A stretch of DNA of 64,000 bases from Rhizophlyctis rosea (taxonomy: Eukaryota; Chytridiomycota; Chytridiomycetes; Rhizophlyctidales; Rhizophlyctidaceae). The position numbers and the translations under genes were made by a program. Position 1 is the first letter of the stretch. Every line of letters begins with the position of its first letter. This document shows positions 10,248-39,783 of the stretch, in pieces. The notes under the pieces are model-generated. The model saw nothing but the letters and a program-made list of their open reading frames with translations. It was not told where the DNA came from and searched no databases. The stretch lies in NCBI GenBank assembly GCA_027596075.1, contig JADGJC010000173.1:1-64000 (forward strand), given 5' to 3'.

Positions 10248-11485
10248 TCACCCATCCCCCAACATCCCCGCCTCGTCATCCAGCCCAAACACCACCCCAT
10301 CCTCCTCCGCCTCGGCCTTCGGTAGGCCCGTGTAAGCCGAATCAACAAACGGAGATGGGAAGTAAAATCGATATACGATATACGCGAATGAAAACCCGAT
10401 CAGATCGCCGACGATGACGTCGGTTGGGTGGTGCATGTTTCCTTGGAGGCGTGTTATTGCTGTTGTGAATTCGTATGTGATTTTGAAAAATGGTACGGCT
10501 GGGAGAAGTTCTGGGCAACACGAACAAAGAAAGCAGCAAACCCACCAACATAAACCGCCCCACAAAGCGGCGCCCCAACACACACTACCGCCGCCGCAAC
10601 CCGTCCACCATGCCTCCACGCCCCATCAAACACCGCAACCTTCGTCTTTCCCGCCAAATAAAGCGCGACAAGGCCCAGCCCTGCTGCCGTTCGGCCGGAA
10701 TGACCAGAGGGGAAGGACATGCGACCTGTGCGGATCAATTCGGGGTCGCCGGTACAGGCTTGTTTGAGGACGGACCAGTCGCAGCGGGCGAGGAAGTCCG
10801 GACGGAGACGGCCGATGAGCATTTTTATTGTGTAGATTAGGAGTTGGGTGTAGGCTACTGTTGTTAGGCTTGCCTGTTGGGTGTGAGGGGGAGGTTGAGA
10901 TGAGTGTTGGATCTTGTGATGGGAGTGCTGTGCCACCCATCTAAGCCACTTCATAGACAAAGTAATCGCTCCATCAAACCTGTCAAATCCCCATACTTGC
11001 AAAACCAACCAAACCGAACATAGAAATAAGCATATACTTACCAACAGGACAAAGTGCAACTCCTGCAAGAAATTGCGCAACGGCGACCTATGATCAAGGG
11101 ACCTCCTCCGCTGACCCCTACTATTTGGACCCAAATGAATCGCCTGCCTCCTGTCCCTTTTGCTCTGCCACGTCGCATACGCAAACTTTCCCAGATTCCA
11201 CAATAGCGCCGCAAGAGTTGGAGTGAGCAATGCTACGGCCCATGATGCGGGTCTTCCAAATGCTTGCGGACGAGCGGGGTGCGAGATGGAGGGGTCGGTT
11301 ACGGAGAAGTCTTGGTGGAATGGTTCGAGGGATTGTAGGTAGAGGGAGAAGAAGATTAAGGCGATGGAGGTTGAGTAGTCGATTATGTAGGATGGGTGGA
11401 GGAAGGAGAGGAGGGGTTTTGGGCGGGTGTGGTTTGGGTGGGCGCGTGGCAGGAGGGGGGAGGAGGGGGTTGGGAAGTGGTCCAT
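10248..11485 (-). CDS. PAP2-family lipid phosphate phosphatase
   Basis: Integral-membrane phosphatase that dephosphorylates phosphatidic acid, diacylglycerol pyrophosphate or related lipids (DPP1/LPP group). The three catalytic motifs are present: C1 KMLIGRLRP, C2 FPSGHSG, and C3 TRLQGNMHHPTD (R-x5-H-x3-D, T replacing the usual S). C3 lies in another frame and is joined by an intron 10460-10545 (donor gtgggt, acceptor acaacag), which gives AVYVAITRLQGN in the normal spacing after C2. Exons 11485-10546 and 10459-10248 total 1152 nt (383 aa). A second, in-phase intron of 63 nt near 10872-10934 (gtggca..caacag) is likely, because it would remove a hydrophilic insert just before C1. Several hydrophobic segments are visible. 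It shares a divergent promoter with the GDPase gene. The ATG at 11485 is in a proline-rich leader. Confidence 0.85.
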
Positions 11486-12074
11486 TTTTGGTGTTGGAGG
11501 TGTTACGGGAGAAGGGACTGCGTGGAGCCTTTAATAGGGAAGACATTTGTATGAACAGCGTCAGCTGATACCTGTCTTTGAGAGCGCAACACTCATGCCA
11601 AAGTTGCCGTAGTAGCACTAAGGCACCTTACCTGAATATTTGAATACGAAAGCCCGTTCACAATGCCCTCACGTCGACACTGATATCGAAATGCGGTTCC
11701 TCCGTGAAGAACCCTTCCTCCAACTAGATAGAGGTAGTACGCGGGATATATGGGGTGTCGTTTACCTGTCAAGTGTATGCAGGTGTGTAAGGGGAAGGTG
11801 CCAAGATGGGGTAACGTGGAGAAGCAACCCTGGAGCAAAGCTGGACGAGATGAGACCAACACCACATTCGAATCACACACTGGTTGTTACTCCAGCCGGC
11901 TTCCCAATCCATCACACCCGATCGACCCAGCGCCATCAGATAAGCTCGAAGTCCAACTCCCCCCATCTTCCAGGATTCTCCCTTCAACTACATCACTTTC
12001 AAAATAAGCAACGGCACCCTTCCCAAACAATAGATCACGTACCCACGGACGCCATACTACCAAACCCCTTGTAA
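11486..12074. promoter_or_regulatory. Divergent intergenic region, PAP2 / GDPase
   Basis: 589 bases separate the two start codons, which point away from each other, so both promoters must lie here or overlap. A 144-codon plus-strand frame (11640-12074) has no domain and is probably chance or leader sequence. No TATA element stands out. Confidence 0.4.
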
Positions 12075-14170
12075 ATGCCGGCATCGCCAAAACTGCATAG
12101 GAGAACTCCCTCTCTAAACTCACTGCCCTACACAAACAACATGAGTCCTTCCCCGCCCCGATCTCACAACCACTTCTCAACCTGGAACCCCCTTACGTGG
12201 TCTTATCCAAGACTCATCGTCTCTTTAATGGGCGTTCTGGTCTTTGGCTGGCTAATAGTTGATATTGAGTTTCTGAGACAGGGTTTAGGTCGTTTGCCTG
12301 GTGGTGAGTTCTTCTTGCCAGATTGGCAATCTTGCAGGGAGAAGAGGGGGAGGAGGGGAGGGGGGAGGCCGCAAGGGGAAGCACTGCAAGGGGGGAGGTC
12401 GCAAGTGCCAGATGCGCTTTGGGGTGGGGGGGTGGGGGGGTTCAGGATGGAAGGGAGGAAGGGGAAAGGGGGGAGAGGCTGCAAGGGGACAGGCTGCATG
12501 GGGGAGGCCGCAGAGGGGAAGGCCGCAAGTGCCTTGGGCAATGATGTCTGCTTGTTTGAGTCAAGAATGCTGGGCTTGGGAAGCTGTCTCAACTTTCACA
12601 TGCTATGATGCCGGCCACTGTTTGCCCAGCAAGATTAACATTTGAACACTGTATATGTGTCGGAAGCGAAAGGGAAAGGGAATGTGGACATACATATTTC
12701 TCCACAATCCTCAGACAATCTAATCTTCCACAACTGTCATCCACAGTATCGTTACCCACCACTCACACTCCACCATCATCCTCCGCTCTCTCCTCCACAA
12801 AATCCTGCACTCCATACCCCGGCCGCCCCAGTAAACAATACGCCCTCATGCTCGACGCCGGCTCCTCCGGCTCCCGCATCCACATCTACTCCTTCACATA
12901 CTGCGACTCTCCCTCACCCAAACTAGAACACGAAGACTTCATGCAACTTAAACCGGGACTCTCATCCGACACCTTCAAAACTCCTCGCGAGGCTGCGAAC
13001 TCTTTAGATCCCTTGATGAAGCTAGCGTTGGAGAAGGTGCCGAAGGAGTTTCAGAAATGTACGCCAGTGGCGCTGAAGGCTACGGCTGGGTTGCGGATGA
13101 AGGAGCCGGCTGGGGAGAAAATTATACAGGAGGTTAGACAGAAGTTGGAGAAGGAGTATCCTTTCCACGTTGTTGAGAACGGCGTGGGGATCATGGCGGG
13201 GAGTGATGAAGGTACGTCCATCGAATTGGTATCATTATGCGTCCCCCCAAAATCCGCCATATGTTGCCGAATCATCAACATCAGGCTCATCGCACGTGTC
13301 CTGTGTCTCTTCGCTTTAGGAGTCTACGCCTGGATAACAGTAAACTACCTCCTCTCCCGCCTCTCCCCCACCCACCGCCACCCCACCGCCGCAATAATGG
13401 ACCTAGGAGGCGGCTCCACCCAAATTGTTTTTGAACCCGCCCCGGGCTCAAAACTCGAACCGGGAGATCACCTCTACACCCTTACATTCGAAGGCCAGAA
13501 CTACACGCTGTACCAACACTCGTACGACGGGTACGGTCTTAATGCGGCGCGAAAACGGATTAAGAAAGCGGGCGCGGGCGAGGGGAAGACGCAGCCTTGT
13601 TATGCGGTTGGACATTCGGAGGAGTATTTGGATGATGATGGGAAGGGGGTGACGCATTGGAAGGGGGCTGGTGGGGGCTTTCCGGTTTGTCATAAGTTTA
13701 TTAGTGGGGAGTTGTTTGATAAGACGGGTGTTTGTAGTGTGGGGCCGTGTAGTTTTGCGGGGGTGTATCAACCTTCGTTGGCTCAAACATTTGCCGATAA
13801 CGATATATACGCTTTTTCGTACTTTTACGACAAGTACGCCGAACCTTTTAACGCTCTTTCGGAAAAAGGGTTCACGGTTGGACAGATTCGGAAAGCAGCT
13901 GAGGATGTATGTGCTGGTAAAGTGAAGGCGGAGGACTTTCATTTAGATCATGCTAGTGAGGATGCGTTGAAGCTTTTTGAGGATCCGGATTGGTGTACGG
14001 ATTTGGGGTTTATCTATGGGTTGCTGAGTGTGGGGTATGAGTTGGGGGATGAGAGGAAGTTGATGACGGCGAAGAAGATCAACGGGGTGGAGACGGGGTG
14101 GTGTTTGGGGGCTGCGTTGGATTTGGTGGAGAGGGCTGTGGGGAGTGGGGGGTTGACGTGTTTGGCTTAG
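12075..14170 (+). CDS. GDA1: Golgi guanosine diphosphatase (GDA1/CD39 apyrase)
   Basis: Hydrolyses GDP to GMP in the Golgi lumen, driving exchange of GDP-sugars for glycosylation. Exons 12075-12303, 12747-13211 and 13320-14170 (514 aa) join in phase. A short cytosolic tail, one signal-anchor helix (residues about 45-65) and a Ser/Thr/Pro stem precede the catalytic domain. All apyrase regions are visible: ACR1 LMLDAGSSGSR (about 109-119), ACR2 ATAGLRM, ACR3 GSDEGVYAW with the catalytic Glu, completed by splicing, ACR4 MDLGGGSTQIVFE and ACR5 near GFIYGLLSVGYE. Paired luminal cysteines are present. The second intron (108 nt) is a multiple of three without a stop, so an unspliced reading stays open and gives a false insertion between SDEG and VYAW. 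The first intron holds G-rich repeats. Confidence 0.93.
12335..12535 (+). repeat. G-rich tandem repeats in GDPase intron 1
   Basis: Degenerate repeats of the type ggggaggccgcaaggggaa occur several times between 12335 and 12535 inside the 443-nt first intron, along with G runs of 6-7. On the transcribed RNA these could form G-quadruplexes. Confidence 0.8.
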
Positions 14171-22948: not shown

Positions 22949-24663
22949 ATGTCCCTAACACCTCCAGACGAGCTCAAGTTCATAAATACCTACCTGCAAA
23001 GAGCAGCAGAGTTGCAAACAAAAGAACCAATAGTCGCTTATTACTGTGAGTTGGACGCGATAATCGGAAACGCGGTGGAACGCGCGACTTACACCTGTGC
23101 CATTCACACAATACAGGCAATTACTATGCCGCAAAGCAAGCAATCGACAAGGGCGCGAAGAGCAAGGAGAGTCAGGCGTTTCTGTTGCACTTGATGGACG
23201 ATTTGGAGAAGGTATTGTTCTGTTCGGTTGTTGAGTGCCTTGAGCGTCGTCATTAGCCGTCCTTACGCGCAATCTGTCCTTTAGGAACGCAAAGTAGTCG
23301 GCACAAACGAGGCAATAACAAACGACGTCGTAGGTTATGCTCACATTGAGAATTTCGCGTTGAAGATTTTCTTGAATGCCGATAACGAGGATCGAAATGG
23401 GGGCGCGTCGAAGTAAGTTTTCTCCTCACCATCCTATCGCGGATAGTTGCGCGTTTTGTGATTGATGTTCTATATCTGTGGCAGAGTTCTAAATGGTTGA
23501 ATTTGGCACATTGCAGGAAAACGGCAAAGACGTTCTTGGCGGCTGCTATCTTTTTGGAGTTGTTGAAGGTGTTTGGGGAGGTTGATTCTGAGGTAGGTTT
23601 CAATGACATGGATTGTTGGGGGGNNNNNNNNNNCCCCCCCCCCCCCCCCCCGCGCAGCAAAGTCGTTGGTTGGTGGAAGGAGATTACAGCAGATCTATCG
23701 CATTATTCGTCAATTGGCGCGACATAAGCTGGTTTTGCCCCCACCGGTTGGAGAATGACCGTGATGGGCTTTCCTACCCCAGCAAGATTCCATATCCGTC
23801 ATAATATCAGGAGGGAGGTCATTTTTTTTGATATATCGGGCCATGATCAGCAGCGATGTGGTGGCCTGAAGAATGGGCATTGCATGGAACGCGTAGATCC
23901 CTTCTCTTTCCGAAAATCTGACCGATTGTCTCTGCGACCACCACAGGTCCAAGAGAAAATCCGATATGCGAAATGGAAAGCCGCCGACATCATCAAAGCC
24001 CTGAAAGAAGGCCGCACGCCCGTTCCAGGACCACCAGGTGGGGAACCGCAAGAGCAACAGCCCTTCTCGGGTGGCGGTGACGATTCCATCGCCGGCGGAC
24101 TCGGCGGCGGCATGCCCGGTGGATTTGACGCATTCGGCCAACAACAACCCATGAGCCCGCATTATGACCCACAATACCAACAACAGCAACCGTCGCCCTT
24201 CCCACCATCAGACCCATACCATCAACAACAACCACAACCTTCTTACGACCCAAACGCCGGCAACACCCAATACCCGGGTTACCCCCAACAAGGATACCCC
24301 CAACATCAACAGCAACCACCCTCCTTCCACCAACAACCATCCACCCCTTCCTCCTCCCACCCCGCCAGTCCTGGCCCAGGCGGATTCTCCTACGCCCAAC
24401 AACCCGCCGCACCGACACTCCCACCGCGTGCCACGACTGCCAGCGCGCCGTTGCCGAGTACAAGCAGCGGTGGTGGCAGTAGCGGCAGTGGCTTTGATGC
24501 GTATACGATGGATCATAAAGCCATTCAGGCTGCGCAGAAGCATAGTAGATTTGCGATTAGTGCGTTGCAGTATGATGATGTGAATACTGCTGTTGATAAT
24601 TTGGAGAAGGCGTTGGGGCTTTTGAGGGGAATGCAGAGGGGTGGTGGTGGGAGGGGGTTTTAG
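22949..24663 (+). CDS. VTA1: Vta1/LIP5, ESCRT-III disassembly cofactor
   Basis: Vta1 stimulates the AAA ATPase Vps4, which recycles ESCRT-III on endosomes during multivesicular-body sorting. Exons 22949-23045, 23117-23211, 23285-23412, 23517-23592 and 23947-24663 join in phase (370 aa). Residues 1-165 form the tandem-MIT-like N-terminal domain (NYYAAKQAIDKGAK, FLAAAIFLELLKVFGE, VQEKIRYAKWKAADI). A long Gln/Pro/Gly-rich linker follows, as usual in the family. The C-terminal VSL helix pair (IQAAQKHSRFAISALQYDDV, NTAVDNLEKALGLL) binds Vps4 and dimerises. Intron 4 (354 nt) contains the only N gap and a C-run, so its length is uncertain, but the coding sequence on both sides joins as in homologues. 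Confidence 0.93.
23624..23650. other. Assembly gap (10 N) next to poly-C run
   Basis: Ten N bases at 23624-23633 follow a G-run and precede about 17 C. Homopolymers on both sides suggest a sequencing stop, possibly with an inverted or collapsed repeat. It lies wholly in an intron of VTA1. Confidence 0.95.
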
Positions 24664-29626: not shown

Positions 29627-32600
29627 CTATATGGCCTCCAACTGCTTAATCTCACATCCTAGTCCATCTACGAACACCGCACTCCCTGTAGGATTGAACG
29701 AAACAAAGTATCCGTCTCCAGGAGTGGCCCATGTCACATCGCCCTCCGGCCGAAGCTCGCTGGGCAACCACAACAATTTTCTCCCGTTTCGATCCATCAC
29801 CCAACCATCATCAAACTTCAACCCATCTCCCGCCCACCATGAACACACAAACTCCCCTGTCTTCATGACTTCCCAATATGTTCCCTTCTTCACCACTTCC
29901 CACCCATAGTCCGCATCGTACTCCCAAACTTCAACCCCGGGCAAATCATGACTGACCGCCACTGCCAACCCATCCAACGACACAGCAAGCCATTTGGCCG
30001 ACTTATCACTCTCGATGGGAAGAGATGCAATGTGCTGCCCTGTCACCGCATTCCACATATTGATCTGCTTTCGCACATCGAAAAGCTTACTTGCCCTTCC
30101 TTCAGGCGGTTTGTCCGACCACGTGACGAGCGTACTTCCATCCGCAGACAGAGCAACACATTGCACTTGTCCACCAATGTCCATACTACTTGACAATGTA
30201 CCCGACTTAATATCCCAGATTTTCGCTGTGCCATCACAAGACCCCGTCGCTGCACGCGTGCCATCCGGTGTCAGACACACCCACCAGACCCAGTCCTTGT
30301 GCCCGGAAAGTATATGTTTGGTTTCACCAGTTGCGACATCCCAGACCCGAGCCGTCTTGTCGTGACAGGCCGTTATGAGGGTGTCACCAATGGCGTTGAG
30401 GGCAGCGCAATGGACCTGGTCGGTGTGGCCTCTGAAGGTATTGACGATTGTTTGAGTTGTGGTGTCCCAGACTGGTGGTATTGGTAGAATGATGATTGTC
30501 AGTCATGTCCTGATGGAAACCATATCAAACCTAGTTTACTCACCTTTCGCCATACAATCCCGTGAACCAGTAGCAACGAACCTTCCATCCTCAGTACACT
30601 GGACACACTTGATCCAATCTTGATGCCCTAACACCTCGGTCTCCCCCTCCCGTGCTGTAGCGTTCCAGAGTTTCGCGGTAGCATCTTCAGCCCCCGTAAC
30701 AAGCTTATCTCCAGTTCCAGTCAGACACACTGCACTGACCTTCGCGGTATGGCCCCGCAAAGTCGTGAGCAGCTCCCCAGAAGAAGCGTCCCAAAGTTTG
30801 GCGGTTTGATTCGAGCCTGTAGCGACAATTTTTCCGTCTGGGGTGATGGAAACTGAGGAGTGACCAGTCAACGTCGAAACACTTTGACCGGTTGACAGAT
30901 CCAAGACGGAAGTGTTTTCCCATGTGGCAACAACCACCCTTTCTCCATCTGCCGTGACATCCAATGACGTGATCCAATCACCAGCCGAAACAGTTCTGAG
31001 ACGTTCTCCGATCCTACTGTTCCAAGTACGGATCATCCCATCCGCGCATCCAGTGACTACAACCTCACCCTCCTTCGCAAAAGCAACTGCCGTTACCCCA
31101 CCGCCATGCCCCTCCAATTTCATCACATCGCTGACACTCCTCAAGCTCACAACAGCAACGGTCCCATCGTCCGATCCTGTTGCCACCATCTCCCCACAAA
31201 GCGCAACAGATGTAACACCCTCGCCATGGTGAGAAAACTTATGCTCACAACGGGCGCTTTCCACATCCCATACTCTGCAAGTCCAATCTTGGGATCCCGT
31301 CACCACTTTACGGCCATCGTCCGATACCGCCACGGAAGTCACCCAATTCTGGTGACCCACCAAAGTCGCGAGCGAAGCACCAGTCTCTAGATCGTAAACC
31401 TTTGCGGAATGATCAGCTGATCCCGTCACTATGACTATGTTGCCGACTTTGGATAGAGCTATGCTTGTCAAAGTAGCTTTATGACCTTCGAATGTGCGTT
31501 CACAGGCAGACCATGTGGTAGCAGTGCCGGAGATCCTGAGCGGGGATGATTGGGATTTATAGAGAGAGTGCAGTTGGGTTTGGGTTGGCGTCAGATTGAT
31601 TGCGGAGATGTAGGTATGGAGGGGAGCAGCGGCGATGGGCACGTGAAATGTTTGCATGAAGCGGATCATGTCTGTCGTCAGGGTCTTCAAGGGAAGGATC
31701 TGAAACAGGAATTCCATGGTCCGTAAATCCATCATGCTCCGTCGAAAATGGCATGATTGACCATCACACCAATCAAATCATTCCAATCAGACAGAAACTC
31801 ACCCTCCGACCAATATCTGCATCGCAGTTCCCGAGCAACGCCCCATCCAGCCACTTCCCAACTTCGACCATTGCCCCAATAACAACATCGCTCCTCCCAA
31901 CCGCCGCACAGCATTCCACCCACTCCAACAGTTTCCGCATCAATATCTTGTCAACCGCCACCGTCACCTCCATATCTCCACCAGAGTGCAAACCCATCCC
32001 CGGCCCGACTTGTGCACGTCGTAAGTGCCGCGTCCAATATTTGCAGGCATATGCAAGCTCGTCCGGAACATATTTTGCAATCCGCGCAGCCAGGTCGGGC
32101 ACGTCCGTCAGGAAAGTGAAAGGAGGCAAATTCAAAATGTTCTGGTGGAGGTGGGTGGACATGATTGAAAGGCAACGAAGTGCAAGTGTGCGATCGATGG
32201 TGGGAAGATCGATGTGGAACTGTGCTTTGGCGCGCCGAGAATCGGTGAGGTACTCTGCATAAACAAATCAGGCATGAGGGAATGATTTTGCAGACGCAAC
32301 AACCAAAGTACTGAAAATCCATACCCGCAACAGATTTATGCTTTTCCTTCACAACTCCATCCTGATCAACATCAATCATCGTTTCCAACCGTTCACAAAT
32401 TCGCATTACATCCGTTTCGTCGATACTCATCAATTCACCGATGCACCGAACAGAGATTGGCTCGATGGCACCAACGATACAAGCCAAAACATCCCGAAAT
32501 TGCGGTTCATGCTCATAAGCCCCTTGCATGTTCCGCTCGTACATGACATCCACATCAGCAGGCAGGTCCGCCATCAACGTCCTCACATCCGACAAAGAGT

Positions 32601-35041
32601 CACATTTTGAAATATGGAGATGGGCAAGTTTCATCCAAATGAAGAGTTTCCCGCTCTTCTCCACCAACAAATCCACCATTCCGCCAATGTCTGGATTGCC
32701 ATCCCACCGTTTCAACATATTCTCTGCATACAGTTTCAAGTCGCCAATGTTTCGCTCGTCGTTCGCTTCGAGGTTGATGCAAGGTTGAAGATCTTGCAAG
32801 GCATGGACAATATCCGGTGACAATCGACTCGTCACAAAGAGTTTGACGAACGGGGGGAGTTTTCGCCATTCTTGGGCGATTACGTTGAGGATTGGGCTGC
32901 GATTTTCGAGAGTTCCACATTCTATGAATTGAGCCGCACCCCGGAGCAAGAGAAAATGACGATATCCGATTAGTGATTGACGGGTTGGTGATTGACGGAG
33001 ATGGTGGTGAGCTCTTCACATACCGTCCAGTGCATCAACAACAAAGACAACATTTTTGCTGGGTCGGATCCCCGTCTGCAGCGTCGTTAACGGCTTCACA
33101 ACCAAGGCCTCAAACTGTTCCTGGATAGACTTCATCATGACGTCCCTTCCTTGTGACAAGATATACTGCCCAATCTCCGGACTCCAGCATGCAAGCCCAA
33201 AGGCCAGGGTATGTATCAATTTCTGGCAAAATTAAACATTCTTTGTCAGCGTTCTACCTCTCTAATTTTGTCAAACAAAATGCAAACATGACACCCCACC
33301 TGCGGATCCTTCCTCATTTCATCATTGTGCTTGCAAAAGAACGTCCCACCCAACAGCAACTCCTTCTGAAGTTCATCAGCAACAATGGCTGCACATACAC
33401 TCTTTCCCATTCCTGGTCCACCACGCAGCCACATAACTCGTCCCTCATCTTGTCCAGCCCATTCCAACGCAAGGTCTACAAGCCATCGACGGGTACCAGG
33501 TTCATGAGCCTCACGGAGGTCGTGGCGATCTTTGTCTTGGTAAATGGGTGACAGCAGAGTGCGAAGTTGGTCCATTTCCGTTGATGACAGGACACCGGGG
33601 AGATTTCGGAGATGTCGCGCGAGTGTTTCGTGGGCTTTTGGTACAAGGCTGGAAGATTCATGCAGTCAAAAGCAGAATACAGAATATTGGAAGTGCTTAC
33701 AGGCCGGACTCACTCCTGTACGGTGGGCAGCCATCCATGTGCGCCCTGCAGCGTAAACAGCTTGCCAATCGTCTCCGCAATGGTCCGCTTCCGTGGACTT
33801 TTTGGATGAACATGGTACGTATCTGGGAACTTCATTCCAAAGCCATTGAAAGCTTGTAGGGTTAAGCGGCCATTTGGCTTGGAAGATTCCCCAACAAGCA
33901 CTAAGAAAATCGCCGCTTTCCCGTCGTCAAACATGTCCAGTGCTAGTTCCCACTGAAGTTGAAGGGGGTTGGCAATGGGAGTACAGTAGACATAAGCGGA
34001 AGAAGACCCAATTACGCACCTCTAACAACATATTATCAGGGTAGATATCAGCTTTGGTACAGTTATTCAAACAACCTTCTGAGCACATGATCACAATAAC
34101 ATGTGCTCGCATTAGACCTTGCAAAAATCCCACCTCCCATAGTTGCCCATCCACCAAGCAAGACCTGCAAAATATTCAATCATGAATGCATTTAGTCTTT
34201 CACTATTTGCCTTCCTCTTGCCGACAGCTTGGTATTGCGTGAAGAAACATGACACAAGCAAATCGAGTCCACTGGCGAACTTACTTATCAACAAAGCTAT
34301 GTACAGGCTCCTTCCCCTTTTCCTGCCTCAAAAGTGCATTTCCAAGCATCTGTGCGAAGTCCGCATCCGTGGCCACCCGGTAACTAACAAAGAAATGGTG
34401 TGTATCCCAGTTCATGCGGCACGACCAATTAGGTACCAGTGTTATTTCGCGGACAAGGTCATTGTCCTTATCTATATGCAATCATGGTCAAATGAAGGTA
34501 TGCATCTCTTTGGTTATGGCAGAAATCGGAATTCAGATAGAGGAACTCACCATGGAGATCGGCTTGAATCGTAGGTGTTTCGGAGGGGGAGATGACGGCA
34601 TCAAGCTGTCCAGCAGGAGGAGCCACTGGAACGGCATCTGCTGCTTGCTCAAGATTTCCGACATTGACAAAAAGCTTTTTAGGAAAATCCTCTGGGCTTT
34701 CATCAGTAGCTTCAACAAGATATTCCCACTCGTCAGAATCCAGTGAATTTTGAGACTCTCCAAACTCATATGCAATCGTGATGTTTTCGTTTTGGATTTT
34801 CAGGCGCTTGCGTATCTACAGCACAATCAGAACAAATCGGATGTCATCTTCGCGAGCGTCAACTTGGGCAGGAGCAGTGACAAACGGATGTTGGCGGGGG
34901 TGGTTGACAAACCTCGGCAGATAGTTGGTCGAAAGTCCACGCCCTTGATAAGAAGAATGGCCGAGAAAGTCCAGCATATTGGACGGCCACTTTGGTTTTG
35001 GTGGTGCCCCGTGCCGCTGCCCCGCCGGTCGCAGCTAGCAT
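29627..35041 (-). CDS. PB1-TIR-NACHT-WD40 NLR-like protein
   Basis: Eleven exons join in phase: 35041-34913, 34815-34551, 34471-34285, 34164-34020, 33952-33714, 33648-33300, 33222-33024, 32921-32325, 32254-31803, 31699-30544 and 30471-29627, giving 1520 aa without a stop. Residues 16-95 resemble a PB1 domain (KVAVQYAG, TFDQLSAEIRKRLKI, acidic SLDSDEWEYL, KKLFVNV). Residues 156-310 resemble TIR: HHFFVSYR, VHSFVDKSCLVDG, AHVIVIMCSEGCL, then LLEWELALDM, where E242 sits at the position of the SARM1 catalytic Glu. The NACHT ATPase follows: Walker A GGPGMGKS (398-405), Walker B VVFVVDALDE (about 496-505), sensor-like LFVTSR. About ten WD40 repeats fill residues 930 to about 1440 (GHQNWVTSV, GSQDWTCRVWD and similar). 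This is the layout of a STAND immune or heterokaryon-incompatibility receptor; ligand and activity are unknown. Confidence 0.88.
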
Positions 35042-36814: not shown

Positions 36815-37729
36815 GCGTTGGTTACGGAGTGTGCCGCGGGTGGTCGAGAAATCAGAAAAGAAGATCTTGAGCGCGAATTGCAGGATGGGGAAACGAGAGG
36901 GCAGAACACCTGCAGACGGGACAAGTTTTACCAAGGTTCTGAACGAGTCATGTCATGGTCGTCAATGGTTGTCAAAAACTTGTTTACTACCCGCGCGTGT
37001 CAATAAATAGCATCATCTAGAAAGTCGAGAAAGTTTCCTGATATCGGCCGATCTCAGTTTCCGGGGCAGTATACCTTTCTATGGTCAGATTGAGTGGGTG
37101 TGATCGAAACCCTGCATAAGGACCCGTGGCGTCAACGTCATGTTTACTGATAGAAGGAAACGAGGTCCTGCCCCATTATGTGAGCCGAGTTGCTTTCTTT
37201 GGTTCAGTGTTATGCAGACCAAGTTCGGGAATTTTTGTGCACGTGCAAGAGCCATCCGAGATGCTTCATCCGTGACAAGCTCTGGCTTGCATTTCATATT
37301 GGGTTCAAGGCCGCACGGCGCAGAGGGCATTCAGTGTACTTACTACCCGCAAGGGGTTTGCCAATAGCCATCAGCTCGAACCCTATAATTTTAGCAGAGC
37401 ACGGCCATTCCAAATGTACACTTGTGAACGTAATCCCATGGAGTCTGTGGGTATTGAAGAGGCTGGTGGAGAGCCATTCGAGACCAACCAAGTCAACCAA
37501 CGCAGCAGTCCAACTTATCAGTGATTTGATCAACATGGTCCAGGGAGACTGTGAGTCACATCCCGTCATTGTGTCAATTGAGTGTGTGGCATGTGCATGG
37601 TGGAAGCACAAGGCGCAAGGAAGCAAGGAAGCAAGGCAGCATGCAGCAGGAAGAGGAAGGAAAAGAAGAGATCTTCCCAAAACCCTCCAGGGATCGGTAG
37701 GGATTCTTCATACCGGTAGCTAAGTGAAA
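36815..37729. promoter_or_regulatory. Divergent intergenic region
   Basis: About 0.9 kb between the hypothetical minus-strand gene and UBE3D. Overlapping frames on both strands, none supported. Its first 120 bases may be coding for the minus-strand gene. Confidence 0.4.
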
Positions 37730-39783
37730 ATGACTCAAACCATCTACCTGACCCCTAACATATATTGTGAGATACTACCAAATATACGCGCACTCACAAT
37801 CACGATAGGATACCCTCAGCGACAGCAACATTTTAACACCACCTCCACTCCCCAACCCACTTTCACTATCAACCGCACCTCTCTCGACTTCCCCTCGCTT
37901 TCCCACAGGATAACCCTCCCTATACGCGTCGACCCAACGTCGTCTCTCGTCTCCACATCACCAGACGGTCTCACTCTCCGTCTAACAGCATCCCTAACAG
38001 CAAGCATAACATCGCCATCCTCGCTTCGTCCTCCTCCTCGATCCGCCACATCTTCCGATCTAGCCTCACTAACAGATATTCACTGCCACACCTGTCATAT
38101 TTCTATCCTGTCACACTCGCTGTCCTCAACTTCCAGCAAAGTATTCGATCTTCCCACCGACCACTGGCACGAACTCATAGACTGCTGGGCATGTCATAAC
38201 GAGGACTACACGAAAATGCCCGGTCAGACTGGTGGGATAGTTACGGGTCAGCGTGGGAAAGTCGGCGTGGGGAGAAGCTATTTGATTTTGCATCCAGATG
38301 ATGTGGAGCTGGCGAAAGGAGGGAGGGTTGGGAGAGTGGGTTTGGTGGGTGGCGATATGAAGCCGGTGAGTTTTGCGCTGAGTTGCTTTGGGGATGAAAT
38401 CGCACGAATGGCTGGTGAATTTTTTTGCTTTTATTTCATTTCTTTTTGTATGGTTGTTTTGTTCGTGTGTTGTTGCGCTGAGGTATCTCACTTGGCCTGG
38501 CAAAACTCATGAACGGAAGATCATAGAAGGCAGGCACCTCTGCGAAGGTGTCCTTCTTAGGGTGTAGAGGCCCTAGCCGATACAATCTTCCAAAAATCAA
38601 AGACAAAGACCATTCAAGAATACATCCATGAGCGTGAAAGTCATTTGCGTGGGTCTACTGCTTTGGTCTACATTTTCTTAATGCCATAGCATATGAGGCA
38701 GACTCTACAAGAGCGTTTTGGATAAGCACATCCGGAAGCCGTTTCTGATACTATTTTTCAACTTTTTGATCTAGGCCGCCCTAACAGCAAACCGGTGGAT
38801 AGAAGCCATCTGCACGCGGTGTCACAGTCCACTTGGAGAGTGCTTTTATGATTTGCCGAAGGAAGGGGAGCCGATCGGTATATTTCTTGATTACAGACTT
38901 GCAGAATGTAGTGTAAAGATACCCCCGTCATCCCAACACATCCCGCATTACCCCACACACAGCAAACAACCTCCTAGCCGTCAAACTCTACAAGTATTGC
39001 GTGGATTCGGTCACTTCGTAGGTGTTTTTGCTTAAGGTTTCGTTTGCTTTGATTTTCAATATATAATTGTTGTCTGCCGACTCGCGACAGACTACCAAAC
39101 ACAGTAACATACAAACCCTTCATATCCCACTTGGCGGACGACCTCCTGGAAAACGCGAGTGTGCATGCGACGTATCGGTTTAGTGTGACGGCGAAGGAGA
39201 GGGGTGGGGATGAGGAGGGTGGGCCGGATGTTTTGGTAGGTCGGTGCTCTTCCTGCTGGAAATTGGATTAGCGTTGATTTTGTTCCCTTTGCAGCTATGG
39301 TTGGTGAATTGGAACATGTTGGTGGGCGGCAATGCGGCGGGTGGAGGGATGGGGTGGGGGTGGGATGGTGCAAAGGGGAAGGATAAGGTGGAGGGGAAGG
39401 ATGGGGAGGAAGAGATTGAGGTTTATCCAGGTGCGGACGAATAAGCATTTTTGCAAAGTCCGGGCCCTGTATTGAAGCTTACATTTCGCGTTTCTTGCAT
39501 TTCGCATCATTTCAATCATTCTGACTTCTGATCGATCGCATTCCCTTGGAACGCAGTCATGAAAGTCCTCTACCTAAACTGTCCATCGACGCCGTTGTCC
39601 CCCGAACACGCTAAGTTGATTGAAACTTTTATGCAAGATCGGCAGCAGGTCGAGAATTTGAAATTTCATGGGGAGTTTGTAAAGGAGTTGGTGGAGGGGT
39701 TGAGAAGCACCTCAAGGATATTGCCGCCGAGGATGAGGAAGAGTGGCGAGTGGGATGTTGGGTTTTTGGAGAGGGGTGTGTGA
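37730..39783 (+). CDS. UBE3D/Ipa1-type HECT-like E3 ubiquitin ligase
   Basis: Five exons fit in phase: 37730-38414, 38963-39017, 39091-39235, 39295-39430 and 39557-39783 (415 aa). The family (HECT_2; human UBE3D, yeast Ipa1) is linked to ubiquitin conjugation and mRNA 3' processing. Marks: the Cys/His cluster HCHTCHISIL, the segment LPTDHWHELIDCWACHNEDY, the region RSYLILHPDDVE, and the C-terminal block NNLLAVKLYKYCVDSV, LWLVNWNMLVGG, MKVLYLNC that homologues end with. The first intron is long (548 nt) for this window and its donor is gtgaat. The N-terminal 130 residues are Ser/Thr-rich and weakly conserved. Assignment is from the motif order. Confidence 0.8.

Follow-up and report, generated by a model that had tools for sequence, protein, structure and literature searches.

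A 64,000-nucleotide stretch of the Rhizophlyctis rosea genome (contig JADGJC010000173.1, positions 1 to 64,000; hereafter the window) carries a minus-strand gene at 29627..35041 whose 1520-residue product combines a PB1-like module, a TIR domain, a NACHT NTPase, and WD40 repeats, in that order. Pfam, profiles built for this study, and fold searches agree on this order. The gene probably encodes an intact intracellular NLR-type receptor in which WD40 repeats would sense a ligand, the NACHT domain would oligomerize, and the TIR domain would cleave NAD+; drawn by analogy, this joint reading is given a probability of roughly 0.64. R. rosea belongs to the order Rhizophlyctidales of the Chytridiomycota (taxonomy look-up), and the receptor is a member of a family of chytrid TIR receptors that had previously been noted only in passing.

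Gene Model and Domain Architecture

From start codon to stop, the gene comprises 11 exons (35041-34913, 34815-34551, 34471-34285, 34164-34020, 33952-33714, 33648-33300, 33222-33024, 32921-32325, 32254-31803, 31699-30544, and 30471-29627). Spliced in phase, they yield 4563 nucleotides encoding 1520 amino acids and a stop codon, with an open frame throughout; all ten introns are of the GT-AG type and 65-120 nucleotides long. The rebuilt product agrees with the initial annotation, made from the sequence alone, which had joined 11 minus-strand exons into one intact protein with these four kinds of domains and about ten WD40 repeats. It is also identical, at 1520 of 1520 residues, to the deposited R. 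rosea "hypothetical protein HDV00_002994" (P0001), a match that provides no independent splicing evidence because both models may be computational. Better support comes from an orthologue in Borealophlyctis nickersoniae (P0002), which has the same PB1-TIR-NACHT-WD40 order and 60% identity over residues 1-330; a search for the same fusion in other chytrids had been suggested at the outset.

The TIR domain (about residues 155-332; 33618..34403, minus strand, exons 3-6) is a genuine one. Pfam TIR_2 scored 29.1 bits on the cut-out piece and 28.3 bits on residues 1-345, narrowly passing the curated cut-off of 28, and a TIR match at E<=0.1 was obtained for all 11 members of alignment A3 (best 6.9e-15). 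A fold search of the predicted model likewise returned the TIR fold. SARM1 is the closest solved TIR structure by sequence and in the VIA fold search, and ranks second to the plant L7 TIR in Foldseek. The SARM1 catalytic glutamate, residue 642 as counted from the chain range 561-700, aligns with Glu242 of the window protein (in DNMLLEWE; codon 34020..34022, minus strand), and a glutamate is aligned there in all 22 TIR proteins read, including this one. The tryptophan that precedes the catalytic glutamate in SARM1 is replaced by asparagine. From this alignment we infer that Glu242 is the putative catalytic residue of an NAD+-cleaving TIR domain. Two kinase-TIR proteins from metagenome/ENA records (P0007, with an ankyrin annotation, and P0008) carry a DNVLLE motif as in the chytrid receptors.

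The NACHT-type STAND NTPase follows at about residues 363-553 (32776..33527, minus strand; Pfam and own profile). It was matched by Pfam NPHP3_N over residues 373-537 (1.4e-28) and by our NACHT profile over residues 363-553 (3e-95). When the NTPase piece was scanned alone, only NPHP3_N (102.5 bits) and NACHT (32.6 bits against a cut-off of 26.7) were found, and there was no NB-ARC match at E<=0.01. GGPGMGKS (residues 398-405; 33399..33422, minus strand) and VVFVVDALDE (residues 496-505; 32920..33051, minus strand, spanning intron 7), which we take to be the Walker A and Walker B motifs, respectively, are both intact in the sequence. The claim of a TIR domain fused to NACHT and WD40 in a fungus is thus borne out by TIR_2 and NACHT scores above their cut-offs and by the TIR fold. 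Ten WD40 repeats were detected with our profile at residues 921-1358 (30116..31501, minus strand), where Pfam gave nine stretches (2.4e-74); their pairwise identity averages 39%, with a maximum of 56%. Among the 25 families listed, of 56 in the full-length Pfam scan, WD40 fills the C-terminal region, and degenerate WD40 blades may continue to the C-terminus. As judged from its predicted NACHT NTPase, Walker A and B motifs, and repeat sensor, the protein is of the NLR/STAND type.

The PB1-like Module

PB1 domains pair through a type II lysine, a type I acidic OPCA motif, or both. The N-terminal module of the window protein (about residues 16-95; 34660..34996, minus strand, in exons 1-2 with intron 1 inside) likely adopts a PB1-like fold, a view that depends mainly on structure prediction. 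The Pfam PB1 model scored 18.0 bits on residues 24-60 of the window protein and 14.7 bits on the Borealophlyctis orthologue, both below the curated cut-off of 23.6. The R. rosea genome has ten PB1 matches. A profile-profile comparison with six PB1 stretches of this genome gave a score of 25.7 (probability 38.5%), compared with 20.2 for the best of 40 column shuffles. The N-terminus was modeled alone because a fold search with both domains listed TIR matches and none for this region. The resulting model of residues 1-101 is of low confidence (predicted local distance difference test score, 59; predicted template modeling score, 0.43), yet shows the PB1 order of elements. In Foldseek, 11 of ranks 1-14 were titled PB1, ranks 3, 7, and 12 were presumed to be PB1-carrying chains, two matches reached E<=0.001, and rank 15 was ELMO2. 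In the VIA search, the PB1 chain 4mjs scored 9.7, and the remaining matches, at 7.8 and lower, were a mixture of PB1 and ubiquitin-like chains. The PB1 beta-grasp fold was accordingly recovered on a predicted structure only.

The residues used for PB1 pairing are partly preserved. The lysine column is occupied by alanine (Ala19) in the window protein and also by alanine in the Borealophlyctis orthologue, and the acidic motif is partly kept (D69 and E72). With alanine at this lysine position and part of the acidic motif missing, PB1 pairing chemistry is doubtful. For the same reason, the earlier description of the module as a "PB1 adaptor" was overstated, while its placement of a PB1-like fold in front of the TIR domain stands, with the Pfam profile below its cut-off.

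The module and the linker that follows it are conserved in another family of the Rhizophlyctidales, represented by the Borealophlyctis orthologue. No second PB1-like copy was found in the R. rosea genome at the sensitivity of a search with the orthologue N-terminus. That search hit the window gene itself in three pieces; its three further, weak matches (E 0.012, 0.018, and 0.19) start at query residue 81 or 104 and cover the linker and the early TIR region. In a search of the protein collection for PB1 relatives (E<=10), the query was the only match among 41 candidates; this search missed the window's own protein, which shares eight five-residue words with the query and was recovered by another search, and it is therefore no evidence of absence.

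Eight profiles of TIR-NLR N-termini, that of the window protein included, were compared with PB1, with 40 shuffles each. Residues 3-74 of the TIR-NACHT-WD40 protein P0012 of Entophlyctis luteolus scored 24.3 (probability 32.6%), above all 40 shuffles, which by profile comparison suggests a second receptor of this type with a PB1-like N-terminus of its own. P0013 also exceeded 40 of 40 shuffles, but over 10 aligned columns only and with a probability of 2.0%. Shuffles scored as high as the real profile once in 40 for P0011b and for P0023, 12 times for P0011a, 23 times for Nowakowskiella (three of five proteins), and 28 times for Zopfochytrium with Cladochytrium tenue. A beta-grasp reading of most chytrid TIR-NLR N-termini, made by eye, was dropped except for Entophlyctis; none had a Pfam match over the cut-off.

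TIR-NACHT Genes in R. rosea and Other Chytrids

The window's own assembly (44.1 Mb, 634 contigs) was searched for further TIR and NACHT sequences. TIR matches at E<=0.01 were merged into clusters; TIR and NACHT matches alike are at exon level, and the counts are lower bounds. The genome holds 49 TIR clusters and 28 NACHT loci, and 25 of the 28 have a same-strand TIR match upstream, at a distance of 187-2202 bp. Only for pairs represented by a deposited protein is it known that the two belong to one gene. Nearly half of the TIR clusters (24 of 49, some of them weak matches) have no adjoining NACHT match. The genome also has 34 HET matches, all of them, as compared by eye, at least about 16 kb away from any NACHT locus. 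R. rosea differs in this from higher fungi with their HET-NLRs.

Among the best 7993 candidates scored, a profile of the region before the WD40 repeats matched 66 proteins at E<=1e-10. With our profiles, 20 chytrid proteins were found to combine TIR and NACHT in a single chain. They come from 10 species (R. rosea, Borealophlyctis nickersoniae, Obelidium, Siphonaria, Entophlyctis, Nowakowskiella, Zopfochytrium, Cladochytrium tenue, Cladochytrium replicatum, and Chytridium lagenaria), which span at least three chytrid orders (four taxa looked up). At least one WD40 repeat was detected in 17 of the 20 (one each in P0019 and P0020), and the TIR domain is cut in P0020 and P0021. The Borealophlyctis orthologue shares the PB1-like module; a second model from that species, P0009, is without TIR. 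With so many paralogues and relatives, the notion of an isolated, unique fusion was rejected.

Members of the family vary in layout. TIR and NACHT are separated by about 470 residues in P0005 (Obelidium) and P0006 (Siphonaria), compared with about 50 in the window protein, and the P0006 spacer contains a weak second NACHT match (2e-4), as if the TIR-NACHT half had been duplicated. The R. rosea proteins P0003, P0010, and P0011 are TIR-NACHT proteins in which our profile found no WD40 repeat; P0010 carries PF00569, presumably the ZZ zinc finger. A one-pattern scan of genome contigs, a weak test of bacterial origin, gave five stretches and no relatives.

Four neighbors of the receptor gene in the window are ordinary genes by Pfam: PAP2 (10457-11530, minus strand), a GDA1/CD39 nucleoside phosphatase (12560-14167, plus strand), Vta1 (23728-24660, plus strand), and HECT_2 (37724-38509, plus strand). 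The other six of the ten open frames scanned in the window lacked a Pfam match.

A Model for Receptor Function

A working model can be drawn by analogy with plant TIR-type NLRs (TNLs) and SARM1; its parts and their conservation are observed, and its steps are inferred. The WD40 propeller or propellers would bind a non-self or modified-self molecule, upon which the NACHT ATPase would exchange nucleotide and oligomerize. The oligomer would bring TIR domains together, and the clustered domains, with Glu242 as catalytic residue, would cleave NAD+, resulting in cell death or a nucleotide signal. The PB1-like module might scaffold or tune this assembly, a step held with less confidence than the others; a non-canonical face is proposed for it because the ordinary pairing lysine is absent. 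The model draws on the open reading frame, the TIR domain identified by Pfam, profile, and fold, the glutamate kept in 22 of 22 proteins, the Walker A and B motifs with a NACHT score above cut-off, the PB1-like fold, and the recurrence of the TIR-NACHT order at 25 of 28 genomic loci and in 20 chytrid proteins.

Alternatively, the TIR domain could be a scaffold rather than an enzyme, recruiting upon NACHT oligomerization other cellular TIR proteins that would then respond. The TIR clusters without an adjoining NACHT match, some of them weak, could be such partners, the adaptor TIR domains of MAL and MyD88 also match the predicted TIR model, and the SARM1 tryptophan has given way to asparagine. 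Conservation of the glutamate in every TIR protein read speaks against this, as do the top-ranking matches, which are to NAD+ hydrolases and plant TIR domains rather than to adaptors; a scaffold is considered unlikely. A role in allorecognition, with the WD40 repeats conferring self/non-self specificity as in Podospora het-d/het-e rather than detecting pathogens, appears less probable still. The NACHT-WD40 body is shared with the HNWD receptors and the R. rosea genome has many family members, but the repeats are on average only 39% alike, compared with the strong internal conservation reported for the nwd family (PMC4986451), and the N-terminus is TIR rather than HET. Finally, both the gene model and the deposited record are predictions, and the gene might be imagined to be two adjoining ones, PB1-TIR and NACHT-WD40, or to have been joined wrongly. 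With the frame kept across all ten introns, the same order in a single Borealophlyctis model at 60% identity over residues 1-330, and 20 chytrid proteins that each unite TIR with NACHT, this is very improbable.

A broader scenario can be offered as tentative speculation. Chytrids might run a plant-like TIR-NLR immunity, with dozens of NAD+-cleaving receptors, some of them equipped with a PB1-like module that nucleates or polymerizes the complex, and with HET acting in proteins of its own; in that case the HET-NLRs of higher fungi might have arisen later and replaced an older opisthokont TIR-NLR. Because a true TIR domain with the putative catalytic glutamate precedes NACHT at 25 of the 28 loci found, fungal use of TIR NADases as NLR effectors is now directly testable. 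The family also bears on how plants, animals, bacteria, and fungi came to share the TIR-NLR design, because chytrids are a deep fungal branch. The PB1-like module is a possible extra assembly device, unnamed in the fungal NLR papers searched for it, in which the word PB1 is absent.

Relation to Known Systems

The initial annotation regarded the architecture as undescribed. This held in part: no description of a PB1-TIR-NACHT-WD40 protein was found in the literature, in a search that lay mostly outside subscription papers and targeted PB1 only narrowly. A TIR-NLR in a chytrid is less new than claimed. TIR domains in Chytridiomycota NLRs have already been reported, citing among others the book chapter by Daskalov et al. 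2020, as have TIR-like domains in Pezizomycotina NLRs (PMC9815663), and fungi are included among organisms with TIR domains (PMC7075850). In a review of TIR signaling, TIR-NTPase-repeat proteins are placed in plants and bacteria, and fungi are credited with the TIR-like HET (PMC9153377); sampled Chytridiomycota species have as few as one NLR (PMC12258605). The accessible parts of PMC4102429 and PMC10853773 hold nothing further on the subject. The novelty lies in the PB1-like module, in how large the TIR-NLR set is, and in the retention of the glutamate aligned with the catalytic residue.

Several known systems resemble the window protein in part. The Chytridiomycota TIR-NLRs of PMC9815663 likewise have a TIR domain in an NLR, and come from fungi of this phylum; the accessible text names no member and mentions neither a count nor an active site nor PB1. 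In amphioxus, TIR-NACHT and TIR-NB-ARC-WD40 proteins (PMC2575513) fuse TIR to a STAND NTPase, once with WD40; these are animal proteins with no PB1 in the accessible description. The fungal HNWD proteins het-d, het-e, and het-r (HET-NACHT-WD40) have the same NACHT-WD40 body, but the window protein has a true TIR in place of HET, a remote TIR relative according to PMC4986451, as well as a PB1-like module and lower repeat identity; its repeats, with the identities given above, are not highly alike in the HNWD manner. Pfam scans of two N-terminal pieces found PB1, COX16 (E 0.19), and TIR_2 only, and no HET. Plant TNLs such as RPP1, Roq1, and RUN1 share the TIR-NTPase-repeat layout and match in TIR fold, whereas the window protein has NACHT/NPHP3_N for NB-ARC and WD40 for LRR. 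The PB1 domains of NBR1, aPKC, p67phox, and MEKK are alike in predicted fold; in contrast to these, the window module has alanine for the pairing lysine and a partial acidic motif. The animal NAD+ hydrolases SARM1 and TIR-1 provide the closest solved TIR structure by sequence and VIA and the second by Foldseek, with the catalytic glutamate aligned. SARM1 carries ARM and SAM domains rather than NACHT-WD40, and the window protein has asparagine where SARM1 has tryptophan.
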